Positions 1-24,950 of a stretch of DNA of 64,000 bases are shown one piece after another. Below the pieces are notes generated by a model. It was given only the letters and a program-made list of their open reading frames with translations. It did no database searches and was not told where the DNA came from. Location of the stretch: NCBI RefSeq assembly GCF_014652455.1, contig NZ_BMYV01000002.1, forward strand, positions 1 to 64,000, read 5' to 3'. The position numbers and the translations under genes were made by a program. This stretch comes from Litorimonas cladophorae (lineage in GTDB: Bacteria > Pseudomonadota > Alphaproteobacteria > Caulobacterales > Maricaulaceae). How positions within the stretch are numbered: position 1 is the stretch's first letter; each line of letters begins with the position of its first letter.

Positions 1-243
1 TCTTTTTTCTCCATCGGCCAAAATGAGTAGGACATTATCGGCGGTAATGTCACGATTTACGCGTGGGCCTTTGATTTTTTTGGCGGGTTGGGCCGAGAGG
101 GGTCTTCTAGCGATTGGAGTGCTCCTAAGTAATTCAATCCGTGTTTTTACAGTGACCGCATATGGCGGTTTTATGGACCATATACAAGGGAAACCCCCCG
201 AATTGGTAAAGGTTTCGCACGAAATTCGGTCCTACGCCTTGAA
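1..243. other. Left edge, no gene established; short inverted repeat
   Basis: This stretch follows the stop of the minus-strand glycosyltransferase gene. Positions 31-51 hold an inverted repeat with 7-base arms (GACATTA / TAATGTC) and a 7-base spacer, which could be an operator. On the minus strand an ATG at 35-33 opens a frame that leaves the window, and another minus frame is open from about 233 to the edge but has no normal start codon. Neither has a clear Shine-Dalgarno sequence or a recognisable protein, so no gene is called. A short plus-strand frame (23-271) runs into the 3' end of the glycosyltransferase gene and looks like chance. Confidence 0.3.
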
Positions 244-2132: not shown

Positions 2133-2566
2133 GCAACCCCGCAATCTTTGCCCCTTTTGGGTTCTTGGTGGGATTTCCGCTTCTTTGGATCGCGGCCTGT
2201 TTCCTATTGTCTCGATTGAGTGGGTGGGCCTCACTCGCGACAGAGTATGGCACAGACGCAAAGCCGGTAGGGGAGCGTTACGGGTCACAGTCAATGGGTT
2301 TAGGTTTCTCACGTTTTTCCATGGTGAGTTACAGCTCCGTGGTGAACAGCTATGTTTCAGAGACCCATCTTTATTTAGTGCCAAAGTTCTTTTTTAGAGT
2401 CGGCCATCGACCTCTCAATATTCCGCTGAAGGATATTAAGTCAGGCCCAGGCCGTGTTTTGTTTTGTGACGTCACAAATATAGAATTTCGAAATGCCGAG
2501 GCCGTGAAAGGTAGATTTTTTGGCGTCCTTGGAGAAAACCTTATGAAAGTTACGTCCAGACTCTGA
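2129..2566 (+). CDS. Small membrane-anchored protein of unknown function
   Basis: A 145-residue protein read from a GTG that overlaps the stop of the hydrolase gene (GTGA), the usual sign of coupled translation. One strongly hydrophobic segment near the N-terminus (about residues 8-28) should anchor it. The remainder is beta-rich, with repeated short strands, somewhat like the PH-like domains of small bacterial membrane proteins, but I do not recognise the family. No catalytic motif is visible. The coupling to the ABHD10-like enzyme is the only functional hint. Confidence 0.65.
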   Translation: MSNPAIFAPFGFLVGFPLLWIAACFLLSRLSGWASLATEYGTDAKPVGERYGSQSMGLGFSRFSMVSYSSVVNSYVSETHLYLVPKFFFRVGHRPLNIPLKDIKSGPGRVLFCDVTNIEFRNAEAVKGRFFGVLGENLMKVTSRL

Positions 2567-2604
2567 CCTTTGCAAATCCTGCAAAGCTGCCCTATCTCAC
2601 GCTT

Positions 2605-3507
2605 ATGGTAATTCCCCTCGATCAACGCCCGCGCTCTGGCCCCTATTCCGGCTTGAATGCGCGATCTGCGAAACGGTTTTTGACGCAGGCTTTTGAGGAG
2701 GCCGGCTTGGATTTTGCGGAAGATGACGCTCGAGAGATTGTGGAATCAGCGACGGGTCTAGACCGGACCGCCATGATGCTACGCGGGACGGAGTTCCTGA
2801 CGCCTGAGGTGTTTGAGACGATCAAACAATTAATGGAACGTCGCCTAGCAGGCGAACCCGTTGATCATATTTTGGGCTGGCGTGAGTTTTACGGGCGTCG
2901 GTTCCAAATTTCAAAAGCTGTTTTATCCCCCCGCGCAGATACAGAAACCCTCATTCGCGGGGCTCTTGCGCGATTAAACCCGCATGTGCCTCACGCGTTA
3001 ATTGATTTGGGCACAGGGAGTGGCGCGATTGGTTTAACGCTCTTGGCCGAGTTAGAAATGACAACTTTATTGGCGACCGACCTCTCCCCTGACGCCTTGG
3101 CCGTCGCCAAAGCGAATGCCAAAACCCTGAACGTGGAAAATCGCGTAAGTTTCGTACAGGGGCCTTGGTGGGACGCTGTGCCAAATGCGGCGCGGTTTGA
3201 TATGATCTTGTCCAATCCGCCCTATATCACAAATGCCGCGATGAAAGGCTTAGAGCCAGAAGTTCTCGGCTTTGATCCTGATCTGGCGCTACGTGGGGGT
3301 CCAGATGGGTTGGACGCCTATCGTGCCATTATAGACGGCGCAAAAGCCCGTTTGAAACCTGACGGCTGGTTAGGTTTTGAAATTGGGTTTGATCAAGCCG
3401 CATCCCTGAGCAATTTGCTGCGCGCAGACGGATGGAGCCAGATCTCTGTCGATCGTGACTTGGGTGGAAATGATCGCGCGGTCTGGGCTCAAGGCTCCCC
3501 CGCCTGA
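2605..3507 (+). CDS. prmC: Peptide chain release factor N5-glutamine methyltransferase PrmC (HemK)
   Basis: A 300-residue SAM-dependent methyltransferase that modifies the glutamine of the GGQ motif in release factors RF1 and RF2. The N-terminal helical domain is at about residues 18-100, the SAM loop DLGTGSG at 134-140, and the signature NPPY at 204-207. In many alphaproteobacteria the order is prfA–prmC–DUF4167–clpB. Here prmC, DUF4167 and clpB are in place but prfA is not upstream. No convincing Shine-Dalgarno sequence precedes the ATG; this start fits the family's usual N-terminus. Confidence 0.93.
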   Translation: MVIPLDQRPRSGPYSGLNARSAKRFLTQAFEEAGLDFAEDDAREIVESATGLDRTAMMLRGTEFLTPEVFETIKQLMERRLAGEPVDHILGWREFYGRRFQISKAVLSPRADTETLIRGALARLNPHVPHALIDLGTGSGAIGLTLLAELEMTTLLATDLSPDALAVAKANAKTLNVENRVSFVQGPWWDAVPNAARFDMILSNPPYITNAAMKGLEPEVLGFDPDLALRGGPDGLDAYRAIIDGAKARLKPDGWLGFEIGFDQAASLSNLLRADGWSQISVDRDLGGNDRAVWAQGSPA

Positions 3508-10264: not shown

Positions 10265-10433
10265 ATTTCATAGCCCGGGGCGCGCGTGTGTCGAAAGAGT
10301 ATCAAGTGTTCCCACCTTGCCCTAATCTTCCCTAAATCAGGGTTAACGATATCTTGCTCTCCGTGTAAACTGACCAATTTTTAACGGTTGGTTTTGTTGG
10401 TCTTACAAGAGAACCTCATCTATGCATTAGGGT

Positions 10434-10449
10434 AGGAGGTCGGGCCATT
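10434..10449 (+). promoter_or_regulatory. Shine-Dalgarno sequence placing an ATT start codon
   Basis: AGGAGG at 10434-10439 is followed by seven bases and then ATT at 10447-10449, in frame with the long YdbH-family gene. No ATG, GTG or TTG occurs in that frame between this site and a TTG at 10567. That TTG lies inside the predicted membrane helix and has no Shine-Dalgarno sequence. Confidence 0.7.
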
Positions 10450-13400
10450 TCTGCGCAAGATATAAATACAGATGCGCCAAAGGCCTCACCGGTTTCACGG
10501 GCGTCCGCGAAAACGCGCAAACGGCGTTGGTACCTTCGTTGGTGGGCGTGGTGTCTTTGGGCCTTATTGCTTATTTTGCTAGCCGTGGCCTGTGTGGCTG
10601 GCTGGGCTTGGACGCAGCGCTACAGCTTGATGGAAGATTTGGTGATTGAGACTTTAGCGGAGTCTGGCTTTGAGGCGAAGCTGGACATTACCTCCGTTAC
10701 CAGCACCGACGCCACGATCCGCAATATTCGTTTAAACCGTGATGGGAAAGAGGTTCTACGCGCGTCTGAACTGCGCGCGAAATATGTTTGGCCTGATATT
10801 CGCGATGGGGTTTTAGAACGTTTAGAACTTGAGGAACTGACATTACAGCTCACACTCGGGGAGGATTGGAAGCCCTCCGACGCGTGGCTAGTCAAACTTC
10901 TAGACGACGCGCAGAATACAGACGGGGCGAAAGACGCGCCGTCCCGCTTCCCCAAAAATGGGGTGCAAGTCAGCAATGGAACCTTGGCCTTAAATTCACC
11001 TTTGGGGGAGGCCACACTTTATATCGACGCGACGGTCCCTGCCGCAGACCAGTTTGATGCAGAAATCACGCTCGCCCCTTCGGCTTTATCTTATGGCGGT
11101 TTTCGGGCCGAAGGCGCGGGGTTTGCCACGTTAAACCGCAACGGGCCGACTTTTACCATAGAAGGCCAGACGCAAACGGCTGTTCTCTCAAACGCAGATA
11201 TTCAAATCGAAGATGCCACCTTGCGCTTGAACGGAACGGCCAATTTGGACGAGCTGACCTATCGCGGGGAAATTGCGATTAATGGCGATAAGATCGCAAG
11301 CACCCTTTTCGCGGCAGATGCTGTGGATCTAACATGGGACGGGGACATTTCGCGGAACCCGGGTTTAACCGCCACAGGGCAGTGGAACCTCACAACAAAA
11401 GCTGCGCGGACACCCCGACCTGCACGTGCAGATGAGCTAGCCGAAACACTGTCGCTTGCAACTGCTCTGCGCGTTGTCCCGGTGACAGAACATTATGCGC
11501 CCACTTTGGTTAAAACGGTTAGAGAATTTCTCGTCGGCTCTGATCTCGCGGGAACAGGTCAACTTACCTACGGGCCCTCAGGATTTACCGTTACAACGGA
11601 CACGCCTGTGAGTGTGACAACCCCGCGAAACCGCCTGACATTAACACCACGGGCCGAAACGCCACTCTATATTTTCGATCGAGCCGAACAGAAAATTACT
11701 GTCGGATTAGACGCGGGGTTCACCCGACCGGCCTCCCTAAAGTTGACGAATATCCAATTAGAGGCCAGCTCACCAAATGGAATTAAACTGGACGGCATAA
11801 GTCAATTTTCAACGCGCCTTAGCACGACAGAAAATTGGCGCGTGACCGGCGTAAATCAACGGCCTGTAAGACTGGGCCCAATCCGTGCGGAGCTAAATTA
11901 TCGGGGCGCTGAGTCCCCGAGACGGCTGGCGATTAATACAAACCTAAGTTTCGACGGGGGATTACCCGGCGGATATGTTGAAGACTTGGCTCTGCGCGGG
12001 CGTCTGGATGTGGCCCTGCATGAAAACCGTCAAGTGATTGACTTTACGCCAAATCCAAACGCTCGCGTTACATTTGCGCGCATGGAGACACCAACCGCTT
12101 GGATCATTGAGGATGCAGAGTTTTCATTGCCTGCGACACGGTCGCTTTTTGTTAAACGGCCGGATGTCGGTCTGCTGAATGCGCGTCTGGGACAAGCGGA
12201 ATTCACATTCACCCAGCCGGAAACCCAGACATCGAGCGCTCAGCGACTTGAACTTCAAGCCGAAGCCCTTTCCCTTGAAGGGTCAATCTTCGGTGCAGGG
12301 CGGCAGAATTGGGACGCCATAATTACCAATGCGACGTATCAAAGTGAAACCTTACCCGCAGCTGGGACAAAAGCGGCGGCGGCCAGCGCGCATCTGACGG
12401 CAAAAATCATGCCCGATGTGCCGGTCGAGTTGACCTTGGACAGCCCGAACATTTCGGCCCAAACGCCGCTGGTCAACATCATGAATATGACCGTTGATCT
12501 TACCGGCACACCTTTGGTCTATGAGGTGGCGCATCGCAATGGCAGTATCAAGCTCATCGGAACGGAATTTGCCGAGACGGCCAAGGCGGCAGGTTTGGTT
12601 CAATTCCCCGCAGATGGAGTTGTGAATTTTGCCGACGGTCGTTTTACAGGTCAGACAAATTTGCGCATTGCAAAAGCCAATGATGCAAAGGTCATTGTTG
12701 ATTACGCCTATCAAAATGGTGTTGGTGAAGCCGCTATCCTGATCCCATCGGTTAATTTCACGAATAATGGACTGCAGCCGCAAGCCCTTTTCCCTTCACT
12801 CCGAGGTAAAATTGCGAGCGTCGAAGGTGAAGCCCAAGCCCGGTTAAAAATCGGGTTTGCTGATGGCGCTTTGACCCATTCCAGCGGAGTGGTGGATGTA
12901 TTGGACATTAATTTAGGCACTGCACCCGGCCCGATCGAGGGTTTAAATACCTCTGTGACATTTAGCTCCCTCCTGCCGATGGAGACAGACGGACCCCAGA
13001 CCCTGACCATGAGACGCTTTAACCCAGGCCTGGAGTTGGAGGATGGCACCGTGACCTACCGACTTCTGCCCACGGGCGTAGGTGTTGATTTTGCAGAATG
13101 GCCGATTGGAAACGGCGCCTTGTCACTGGATCCTTTCACATGGCTTTATGCGGCTGAAGAAAACCGCGTGACCATGCGGGTCAAAGACGTGTCCTTAGGG
13201 GATTTCCTAAAAAACATTGGCGACAGTAAAATTGAGGCGACGGGTACGGTCGTTGGAACCTTCCCGATTATCATTCGGGGGGTCGAAGTCTTGGTTGATG
13301 GCGGACGGCTGTCTGTTCCAGAGGGCGGCGTCTTACGCGTTGATCCGGGTCCAAGCGTCCCTATTTACAGTCAAGATGAAGCTATCGCCGTTCTGCGTGA

Positions 13401-13701
13401 AAAGCGCGCCAGTGAATATGCGAACCTTGCACGCGATGCCCTACGAGAATTTCGGTATCGCGAACTCAGCGCGGCCATTGATGGCCCGTTAGATGGAGAG
13501 CTGGAAATCGGACTGAATTTCGATGGCGCAAATGATCGCGTTTTAAATGCGCAACCTTTCCGGTTTGATATTTCAGTCGCTGGCGAACTGTTTAATATCG
13601 CGCGGAGCTTTAATTCCAACGCCCAAGTGAAGTCGGAGATTTTACGGCAAAACGGCGCACTGCCCCAAGGTATTCTCGTCGATGGCGAGGCTATTCCTTA
13701 G
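10447..13701 (+). CDS. YdbH-family (AsmA-like) envelope protein, apparent ATT start
   Basis: A 1084-residue protein if read from the ATT at 10447. The N-terminus is then a soluble stretch, an Arg/Lys/Trp-rich cluster (KTRKRRWYLRWW, about 23-34) and one transmembrane helix (about 37-55), a sensible inside-to-outside order. The long remainder is beta-strand repeats, as in AsmA-like bridge proteins, and the C-terminal third resembles the YdbH domain. In E. coli YdbH, YhdP and TamB move phospholipid between the membranes. The conventional TTG at 10567 would start translation inside the helix and lose the positive cluster. The 3' end overlaps the convergent MBL gene by four bases. Confidence 0.85.
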   Translation: MSAQDINTDAPKASPVSRASAKTRKRRWYLRWWAWCLWALLLILLAVACVAGWAWTQRYSLMEDLVIETLAESGFEAKLDITSVTSTDATIRNIRLNRDGKEVLRASELRAKYVWPDIRDGVLERLELEELTLQLTLGEDWKPSDAWLVKLLDDAQNTDGAKDAPSRFPKNGVQVSNGTLALNSPLGEATLYIDATVPAADQFDAEITLAPSALSYGGFRAEGAGFATLNRNGPTFTIEGQTQTAVLSNADIQIEDATLRLNGTANLDELTYRGEIAINGDKIASTLFAADAVDLTWDGDISRNPGLTATGQWNLTTKAARTPRPARADELAETLSLATALRVVPVTEHYAPTLVKTVREFLVGSDLAGTGQLTYGPSGFTVTTDTPVSVTTPRNRLTLTPRAETPLYIFDRAEQKITVGLDAGFTRPASLKLTNIQLEASSPNGIKLDGISQFSTRLSTTENWRVTGVNQRPVRLGPIRAELNYRGAESPRRLAINTNLSFDGGLPGGYVEDLALRGRLDVALHENRQVIDFTPNPNARVTFARMETPTAWIIEDAEFSLPATRSLFVKRPDVGLLNARLGQAEFTFTQPETQTSSAQRLELQAEALSLEGSIFGAGRQNWDAIITNATYQSETLPAAGTKAAAASAHLTAKIMPDVPVELTLDSPNISAQTPLVNIMNMTVDLTGTPLVYEVAHRNGSIKLIGTEFAETAKAAGLVQFPADGVVNFADGRFTGQTNLRIAKANDAKVIVDYAYQNGVGEAAILIPSVNFTNNGLQPQALFPSLRGKIASVEGEAQARLKIGFADGALTHSSGVVDVLDINLGTAPGPIEGLNTSVTFSSLLPMETDGPQTLTMRRFNPGLELEDGTVTYRLLPTGVGVDFAEWPIGNGALSLDPFTWLYAAEENRVTMRVKDVSLGDFLKNIGDSKIEATGTVVGTFPIIIRGVEVLVDGGRLSVPEGGVLRVDPGPSVPIYSQDEAIAVLREKRASEYANLARDALREFRYRELSAAIDGPLDGELEIGLNFDGANDRVLNAQPFRFDISVAGELFNIARSFNSNAQVKSEILRQNGALPQGILVDGEAIP

Positions 13702-18491: not shown

Positions 18492-20000
18492 CTAGGCATT
18501 AGTTTCTGTTCCATCGGCTAACATGGCTTTCACAGCGGCAACCCAAGTTCCGCGCGCGACAGTTTCTTGGGCGGGACGAGAGGACTTCCATTCTTCATTC
18601 GATTCAATCGCGGCGGCGGCTTTGGCGCCTTCATATAAATCCTTCAACGTCACTTCCCCTGCAGCCATTTCGTCGCTGCCCATCAAGACGGCGACTTGGG
18701 CATTGCGGCGATCCGCATATTTCATCTGTTTGGTGACATTACCTGCGCCGACAAAGACTTCGGCACGAATACCTTCGCGGTGCAATTCACCCGCCATTTT
18801 AAAATATTCGCCCATCAGCGCTTTATCGAAAGCGCAAATAACGACGGGTGGTTTCACGGAAGACTCTAATGCGTCCATCCGCTCCAACGCTGTGAGGAAA
18901 CGGGACACGCCAAAACTAAAGCCCGTGGCAGGTACGGCTTGTCCACGGAACCGCGAAACGAGATCGTCATAACGACCCCCGCCGCCGACAGAGCCAATGC
19001 GAACAGGGCGACCTTTACGATCGCGAATATCTGTAAGGAGTTCCGCTTCAAAAACGGGTCCCGTGTAATACCCCAGCCCGCGCACGATCGAGGTATCATA
19101 GGCGACGCGATCATTGCCAAAGCCGACCGCGTTCAAAATACTATCGATCTGCACAAGCTCTTTCACGCCATCCAAGCCCCGCTCAGATGTTCCCATCAAG
19201 CCCTCTAAGGTCCGAATCGTATCCGCGCGATTATCTGTGGAGGCTGTCGTGAATCCCAAGACGGCTTTGATGCCTGCCGCATTTAATTTAGCGCCATCCG
19301 TGTAATCGCCGCTTTCGTCTTCGCGGCCGTCGCCGAGAAGAGCTTCGACGCCCTCTGCGCCGAGACGATCCAATTTGTCAATTGCCCGCAGAACCTGCAG
19401 GCGTTGTTCAGCGCCTTCGGCGGTATTGGGAACCCCAGAGGATTCGAGAATTCCGTCCAGTAATTTGCGATTGTTTACGCGGATGGCATATTGGCCGTCC
19501 TTTAAACCTGCGGCGCGCATGACTTCGGCAGCCAGCATAATCATTTCAGCATCAGCCGCAGCCCCCGCTGCGCCGACACTGTCAGCGTCACATTGGGTAA
19601 ACTCGCGGAAGCGCCCCGGCCCTGGTTTTTCATTACGGAAAACGCTGCCCGCTTGATAGCGGCGATAAGGCTTTGCCAACGCATCATAATTCTCGGCAAC
19701 AAAACGCGCGAGCGGCGCAGTTAGGTCATAGCGCAGGCTCATCCATTGTTCGTCATCATCTTGAAGCGCGAAGACACCCGTATTTGGACGGTCATCATCA
19801 GGCAAAAACTTCCCGAGCGCATCCGCAAATTCAAAAGCAGGCGTTTGCAGCGGCTCGAACCCATGGATGTCATAGACTGAAAAAGCGGCCTCGATCAGAC
19901 GCGCTTCTGCACGCAAGGTCTCTGCGGCGCGATCTTCAAAGCCGCGCGGACGGCGGGCTTTCGGACGGAAAGGTTTGTTCTGTTTCTTATTTTTAGCCAT
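18492..20000 (-). CDS. hisS: Histidine–tRNA ligase
   Basis: A 502-residue class II aminoacyl-tRNA synthetase that charges tRNA-His in the cytoplasm. Motif 2 is seen around RNEKPGPGRFREFTQCD, and the histidine-binding signature is RGLGYYTGPVFE. A basic N-terminal extension (KNKKQNKPFRPKARRPRG) precedes the catalytic core. The ATG at 20000 is preferred over the frame opening 36 bases upstream because the upstream residues look like untranslated leader. It is divergent from the secreted-protein gene at 20084. Confidence 0.95.
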   Translation of the reverse strand: MAKNKKQNKPFRPKARRPRGFEDRAAETLRAEARLIEAAFSVYDIHGFEPLQTPAFEFADALGKFLPDDDRPNTGVFALQDDDEQWMSLRYDLTAPLARFVAENYDALAKPYRRYQAGSVFRNEKPGPGRFREFTQCDADSVGAAGAAADAEMIMLAAEVMRAAGLKDGQYAIRVNNRKLLDGILESSGVPNTAEGAEQRLQVLRAIDKLDRLGAEGVEALLGDGREDESGDYTDGAKLNAAGIKAVLGFTTASTDNRADTIRTLEGLMGTSERGLDGVKELVQIDSILNAVGFGNDRVAYDTSIVRGLGYYTGPVFEAELLTDIRDRKGRPVRIGSVGGGGRYDDLVSRFRGQAVPATGFSFGVSRFLTALERMDALESSVKPPVVICAFDKALMGEYFKMAGELHREGIRAEVFVGAGNVTKQMKYADRRNAQVAVLMGSDEMAAGEVTLKDLYEGAKAAAAIESNEEWKSSRPAQETVARGTWVAAVKAMLADGTETNA

Positions 20001-20083
20001 AATTGGCGCTGTCCCACAAACTAGGTATTGCGGCAAGTCCGTAAGCTGGGCAGAAAGTCGGAAACTTACAGCGGGGCAGTCTC

Positions 20084-23714: not shown

Positions 23715-24422
23715 TTACTTTGGGTTTGTTTCGGTTTTTCGGAATTTAAAATAGTGACAAGGCCGACCTTCACGACCCGCCTTGGCTTCATAGCGGGTGC
23801 CGGGCCAATCGTCGCCACGCCCACGCCATTGATTTACGGCGTCATGGGTAAACTCCCATCCTCCGCCGTCTTCACCAGAAAAGCGTTTGAGGCGGCTAAG
23901 GGTCCAATCAACATAATGGATAATGTCAGAGGCGAAACGCAATTCGCCGCCTGGTTTTAGAACGCGGTAAAGTTCACCAATGAACTTCGTTCGCAACAGG
24001 CGACGTTTATTGTGACGGGATTTAGGCCACGGATCAGGGAAAAGAATAAAGATACGCGATAAAGATTGATCTGGCAGCGCGGACAAGACATCCCGCACGT
24101 CGCCATGATGCAGCGAGAGATTGGAGAGGTTGGCTTCCGCGGCCCCACGGACAGCTTTCGCGACACCATTCATGAAAGGCTCTGCGCCGATCAGGTGAAT
24201 ATCAGGATGGGCCTCAGCCTGCCAAAGCAAGTGTTCAGCACCGCCAAATCCGATCTCGAGCCAAAGCTCATCTTTCGCCTCGAGATCAGAAAGGGGGGCG
24301 TCGATGTCCCATTTCAATTTAGGAAATGTTTCATCCCAAACCGCTTGGACATGCGGCGACAACGGGCGACCCTTGGCTCGCCCGAATGTTCGAAACTTAT
24401 TTGACTCGCGGTCGAAACTCAT
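23715..24422 (-). CDS. trmB: tRNA (guanine-N7-)-methyltransferase
   Basis: A 235-residue methyltransferase that makes m7G46 in the variable loop of tRNA, using SAM. The SAM site reads LEIGFGGAEHLLWQ near residue 55, and FPDPWPKSRHNKRRL (about 130-144) is the catalytic and tRNA-binding signature. The length is typical. In many alphaproteobacteria metK stands directly upstream, but here the preceding gene is the XRE regulator and metK is absent. Confidence 0.95.
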   Translation of the reverse strand: MSFDRESNKFRTFGRAKGRPLSPHVQAVWDETFPKLKWDIDAPLSDLEAKDELWLEIGFGGAEHLLWQAEAHPDIHLIGAEPFMNGVAKAVRGAAEANLSNLSLHHGDVRDVLSALPDQSLSRIFILFPDPWPKSRHNKRRLLRTKFIGELYRVLKPGGELRFASDIIHYVDWTLSRLKRFSGEDGGGWEFTHDAVNQWRGRGDDWPGTRYEAKAGREGRPCHYFKFRKTETNPK

Positions 24423-24515
24423 GCCTTGCCTATTTTCACGTCAGACAAAATCAGAGATTCAGCCCATTTCACAGTGTGACGGGCCTATAGGGCGAGTAAG
24501 CAGCGCAATAAAGCG

Positions 24516-24950
24516 CTATTCTTCTTCAGACCCACCCAAAGAGCGAGCAAGTTCTAAAATTTGGCGGCGGACCGCTTTGTTTTTAATCTTCAGCACAGCT
24601 TTTGCGAGGCTAACACCATCTGTCGAATTGATGAAATCATACACGATTGGGGACTGGTCTGGACCCTCTGATAGGAGAGCTGGATTGTCGGATTGACCGC
24701 CATATTCTGTCGACAAGCCATCATAGAAGAAGCCAACGGGCACATCTAAGACTTCTGAAAGCTTCCAAAGACGCGATGCGCCGATGCGGTTTGCGCCGCG
24801 CTCATATTTCTGAACCTGCTGGAAAGTAACACCCAATTGCTCACCTAGCTTTTCCTGGCTCATGCGGAGGATTTTACGGCGGAGTCGCACGCGTGCGCCG
24901 ACGTGTACGTCCACCGGATTCGGTGAACGTGGCCCAAGTTTTTCAGTCAT
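24516..24950 (-). CDS. XRE-family transcriptional regulator
   Basis: A 144-residue DNA-binding protein. The helix-turn-helix lies at about residues 18-72, with RLRRKILRMSQEKLGEQLGV and FQQVQKYERGANRIGASRLW as its core (recognition helix near TFQQVQKYE). The C-terminal half is helical and probably mediates dimer formation. Regulators of this exact type sit between lnt and metK in many alphaproteobacteria. A cell-cycle or nutrient role is sometimes inferred, but its targets here are unknown. An ACGTTC…GAACGT inverted repeat (about 24964-25019) upstream of the start could be an autoregulatory site. Confidence 0.88.
   Translation of the reverse strand: MTEKLGPRSPNPVDVHVGARVRLRRKILRMSQEKLGEQLGVTFQQVQKYERGANRIGASRLWKLSEVLDVPVGFFYDGLSTEYGGQSDNPALLSEGPDQSPIVYDFINSTDGVSLAKAVLKIKNKAVRRQILELARSLGGSEEE

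Follow-up and report, generated by a model that had tools for sequence, protein, structure and literature searches.

A candidate AUU start codon behind a near-perfect Shine-Dalgarno sequence is conserved in ydbH of Litorimonas cladophorae and its eight closest relatives

The window analyzed here is a stretch of 64,000 nt from Litorimonas cladophorae (contig NZ_BMYV01000002.1, positions 1 to 64,000). It contains ydbH, in a reading frame that opens after a TAA at 10366-10368 and closes at a TAG ending at 13701 (Table 1). Proteins of the YdbH family are anchored in the membrane once, at the N-terminus, and continue as a long periplasmic bridge rich in beta structure. We found that the product belongs to this family, as the first-pass annotation of the window had proposed. 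It matched PF11739 (YdbH-like) with E = 1.1e-62 and 213.5 bits (curated cut-off, 26.3), and a search of 18 genomes of the genus found ydbH homologues in each (18/18).

In E. coli, YdbH is an AsmA-like phospholipid transporter encoded at the ydbH-ynbE-ydbL locus, and YnbE is its partner lipoprotein. E. coli YdbH, TamB and YhdP are described as redundant and as jointly essential for growth and outer-membrane lipid homeostasis [PMC8593681]. The window gene is like E. coli ydbH in that its product is in the same Pfam family and the genome also encodes a YnbE-type lipoprotein. It differs in that ynbE is not adjacent to ydbH and in that ydbH appears to start with ATT. Sixteen of the 18 genus genomes, the window's own included, encode a YnbE-type lipoprotein (PF13617) at a place unlinked to ydbH. 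The ynbE gene of L. cladophorae lies on a different contig (G000:C1:1584169-1584267), far from ydbH. The two genes are also unlinked in species whose ydbH starts with ATG, and the ATT is therefore not explained by their separation.

We found that the 5' end of the ydbH frame lacks a usual start codon. The first-pass annotation had placed AGGAGG, a 7-nt spacer and an ATT start here, and its coordinates were right. It was also right that no in-frame ATG, GTG or TTG precedes the TTG at codon 41, which lies within the hydrophobic stretch, and that a start at ATT restores a cluster rich in Lys, Arg and Trp ahead of the helix. On translation, this cluster (KTRKRRWYLR) is absent from the product if the TTG initiates. 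Two of its residues, W28 and R31, are invariant in the nine species described below. Inspection by eye revealed no SD-like sequence upstream of the TTG, and the TTG is not conserved among these species.

Table 1. Coordinates of features at the ydbH and infC starts in the window
Feature	Position	Strand	Remarks
infC (IF3) start codon ATC	112..114	-	Internal positive control; ATC behind AGGAG (112-126)
Possible weak hairpin, TGGTCT (10398-10403):GGGCCA (10442-10447)	10398..10447	+	Would take in both the SD sequence and the A of ATT
Shine-Dalgarno (SD) sequence AGGAGG	10434..10439	+	7-nt spacer to ATT; AGGAG invariant, with equal spacing, in nine species
Probable ydbH start codon ATT	10447..10449	+	ATT in 9/9 clade species; no conserved canonical start column nearby
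ydbH CDS	10447..13701	+	1,084 codons plus stop; PF11739 match
Basic cluster KTRKRRWYLR, codons 22-31	10510..10539	+	From translation; precedes the membrane helix
Presumed membrane anchor (N-terminal hydrophobic residues W33-W55)	10543..10611	+	Read from sequence
First canonical codon, TTG, codon 41	10567..10569	+	Probable false start for gene callers

We found that the ATT is conserved among close relatives. We compared nine species (the ATT clade), comprising the window's own and the eight closest to it, all separate assemblies. YdbH of the eight relatives has 51-73% protein identity to that of the window. The first-pass annotation had suggested aligning homologues to look for an ATG at 10447. 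The alignment revealed ATT in all eight relatives (8/8) and ATG only outside the clade. An SD sequence, 7 nt, ATT and a TCN codon are found at the homologous place in all nine species. The SD sequence is AGGAGG in eight of them and GAGGAG in the other (L008). Farther relatives, in the same genus and in other genera, have ATG starts, and in one case TTG. A comparison by eye matches the N-termini MSVADT and MSVTDT from other genera to ISVQDKNT of the ATT clade, indicating that the ATT occupies the place of the ancestral ATG. Among 20 more distant loci of the family, we found no further clear ATT start. A protein tree of 30 rows places the ATT rows in a single clade (support 100), with one label change. 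By this tree, the ATT start has a single origin, in the ancestor of the clade.

The sequence that follows the ATT behaves as coding sequence. All nine species have Ser at codon 2, spelled TCT, TCC or TCA, indicating that coding constraint begins directly after the ATT. All gaps in the stretch from the ATT to the helix have lengths divisible by three. The frame of L008 is closed by a stop only a short way upstream, and four codons intervene before the ATT. The closest relative, the sister species G014 (L003), lacks canonical codons throughout the interval from the upstream stop to codon 60.

Conservation of the ATT is not expected from the rest of the gene. Four-fold degenerate sites have only 26-37% identity to the window and are near saturation. 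The window ydbH contains 33 ATT codons, and chance is excluded because only one of these (1/33), the start, is ATT in all nine species. Each of the six other columns with invariant Ile mixes ATT with ATC or ATA. Among the other invariant columns, with Trp and Met left out, a single codon is kept in all nine species in 5 of 277. Taken together, the comparisons strongly support the prediction that translation of ydbH begins at the ATT at 10447.

We found that the SD sequence is unusually strong. We calculated the energy of pairing between the 16S tail and the 20 nt preceding the start. With the genome's own 16S tail (CACCTCCTTTCT), the SD duplex of the window ydbH has an energy of about -13.2 kcal/mol. 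The mean is -12.2 kcal/mol in the ATT clade. Relatives with canonical starts (n = 23) average -4.1, and window genes with conserved starts (n = 17) average -5.6. This comparison is descriptive only, as the species are related. The best reading of these energies is that a near-perfect SD sequence compensates for a weak ATT.

Several other explanations of the ATT can be considered. A sequencing error or a decayed gene is refuted by the comparison. Assembly error is excluded because eight separate species assemblies carry the same ATT, so that nine agree on it, and the 293 invariant residues beside saturated synonymous sites indicate strong purifying selection. Translation might instead start at a nearby canonical codon, either the TTG at 10567 in the window, which gene callers limited to ATG, GTG and TTG must take, or the GTG that some relatives have as their third codon. 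We think this very improbable. The GTG is present in four species (L004, L006, L007 and L010), where it could serve, but the SD sequence is 13 nt away, and the remaining five species have GCG, GCA or ACG in its place. The TTG would begin the protein within its hydrophobic stretch and without the basic cluster, G014 has no canonical codon to use, and we found no canonical start column common to the clade. It is hardly more probable that the ATT is kept as part of a protein-binding DNA site or an RNA hairpin, with its use as a start being secondary. The sequence ATTTC is invariant, and a possible stem, TGGTCT:GGRCCA, takes in the A of ATT. However, the synonymous variation directly after the ATT argues against such a site, folding support for the hairpin is weak, and neither a binding site nor a hairpin would explain the missing start codon and the fixed SD spacing.

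A less easily dismissed possibility, although one we consider unlikely, is that the ATT is the true start but does not serve regulation. Drift could have fixed a weak codon that a strong SD sequence rescued. SD sequences show a general trend to compensate for weak start codons [PMC5622118], and a strong SD sequence could lift output to an ordinary level, making the ATT a tolerated relic. A single base change would revert the ATT, but with a strong SD sequence in place the result might be an overshoot. On the other hand, mere restoration predicts ATG with a weaker SD sequence, or GTG or TTG, in some of nine such diverged species. The ATT was strictly kept over a total (summed) tree length of approximately 3 amino-acid changes per site, which argues against a relic. 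This retention suggests that low or adjustable output of YdbH is under selection.

To our knowledge, very few bacterial genes start with AUU. E. coli infC and pcnB are described as having AUU starts, with the codon limiting initiation (Butler 1987 and Binns & Masters 2002, cited in PMC1780047, PMC13009471 and PMC5472188). Like them, the window ydbH is a chromosomal gene with a probable AUU start, but its function differs from those of an autoregulated initiation factor (infC) and a poly(A) polymerase (pcnB). Streptomyces sigR has a GTC start behind AGGAGGTG, is repressed by IF3, and is usually mis-annotated [PMC5472188]. It resembles ydbH in its very strong, conserved SD sequence and in a rare start kept across species. 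It differs in that the start is GTC or GTT rather than ATT, the product is a sigma factor, and the repression by IF3 is experimental, whereas for ydbH it is inferred. In S. aureus, cvfC1 (AUU) and ccpN (AUA) have extended SD sequences and approximately 10% of the output of AUG, and are conserved in relatives [PMC13009471]. These AUH starts are similar to that of ydbH, but they are from Firmicutes, belong to genes for small or regulatory proteins, and were found by ribosome profiling. By comparison, ydbH has the traits of this class, with no usable canonical start and a strong conserved SD sequence. At the level of sequence, ydbH is confirmed as a deeply conserved new member of the small AUH-start class, in which infC, pcnB, sigR, cvfC1 and ccpN are listed as its kin. 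As a structural envelope gene, and not a translation or RNA-processing factor, it is an unexpected carrier of an AUU start. In one reconstruction from annotated starts, a switch from ancestral AUG to AUU was seen once in 61,358 [PMC5622118]. The ydbH switch appears to have occurred in one ancestor and to be retained in nine species, with a stronger SD sequence alongside. Wherever gene callers permit only ATG, GTG and TTG, the N-termini of these ydbH genes would be mis-annotated.

Based on these comparisons, we suggest (with a probability of roughly 0.8) that ydbH is started by an AUU that was fixed after a change of the ancestral start, that a strong SD sequence supports initiation, and that IF3 caps the output of YdbH. 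In the ancestor of the clade, within a genus of Maricaulales/Hyphomonadaceae type, an AUG (or UUG) start would have become AUU and been retained. The near-perfect SD sequence would recruit the 30S subunit even though codon and anticodon fit poorly, as fMet-tRNA on AUU would make two Watson-Crick pairs and a third-position mismatch. IF3 would then reject part of these initiation complexes, such that output of YdbH, a presumed bridge that is anchored in the inner membrane and carries phospholipid to the outer membrane, would be capped and would rise when IF3 activity is low. By analogy with the known rare starts, we infer that YdbH synthesis is capped or low and that ydbH translation is probably sensitive to IF3. 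The ydbH genes of the ATT clade offer a natural test of whether selected weak starts cap or regulate membrane lipid transport.

The region upstream of ydbH could contribute to its control. A leader hairpin over the SD sequence is suggestive only. In its consensus stem (TGGTCT:GGRCCA), 92% of cells are paired, compared with at most 57% when the stem is slid, and pairing of outer-stem cells is 94%. The outer stem has two pairs with a double change, the covariation is weak (16/500 versus shuffles), and single-sequence folds disagree. An upstream mini-ORF, ATGCATTAG (10422-10430), was rejected, as it is not conserved. We looked for a sigma-70-like promoter for ydbH and found none. A search with the initiator-tRNA pattern GGGCTCATAACCC gave no match, and the exact pattern may itself be wrong. 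Between ydbH and a divergent M23 peptidase gene (10320-10405), the blocks CCCTAAATCAGGGTTAACG, TGTAAACTGAC and TTGGTCTT are strongly conserved in the ATT clade, and these are possibly promoter or operator sites.

We also surveyed the starts of other genes. We compared the window with the syntenic stretches of six relatives and looked for a conserved canonical start column in approximately 21 testable genes. Only ydbH and infC lacked one. The infC start is ATC in the 17 other genus genomes as well, and pcnB has an in-frame ATG, apparently used, in all genus genomes with a match (17/17). The genus thus has ATC for infC and ATG for pcnB where E. coli has AUU for both. For three other genes flagged in the survey (2515-3504, 18495-20081 and 1323-2129), a non-canonical start was rejected, the ATG being conserved, and a fourth (24199-24693) proved to be an antisense ORF. 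Automatic annotation may miss the ATC start of infC. There is also a contig break inside infC (window 1-115), where C5 ends and C2 begins with a short overlap.

It is conceivable, although we regard this extension as doubtful, that the level of IF3 sets the supply of phospholipid to the outer membrane, with ydbH and infC, two AUH starts within approximately 10 kb, responding together and the hairpin as a possible second layer. If true, envelope lipid transport would be tied to the state of translation via IF3. In most of the genus (e.g., G003, G011, G009, G014, G008 and G013), infC and ydbH are divergent and approximately 6-10 kb apart. This arrangement is absent in G016, G001, G002 and G015. 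The proximity of the two genes is probably plain synteny.
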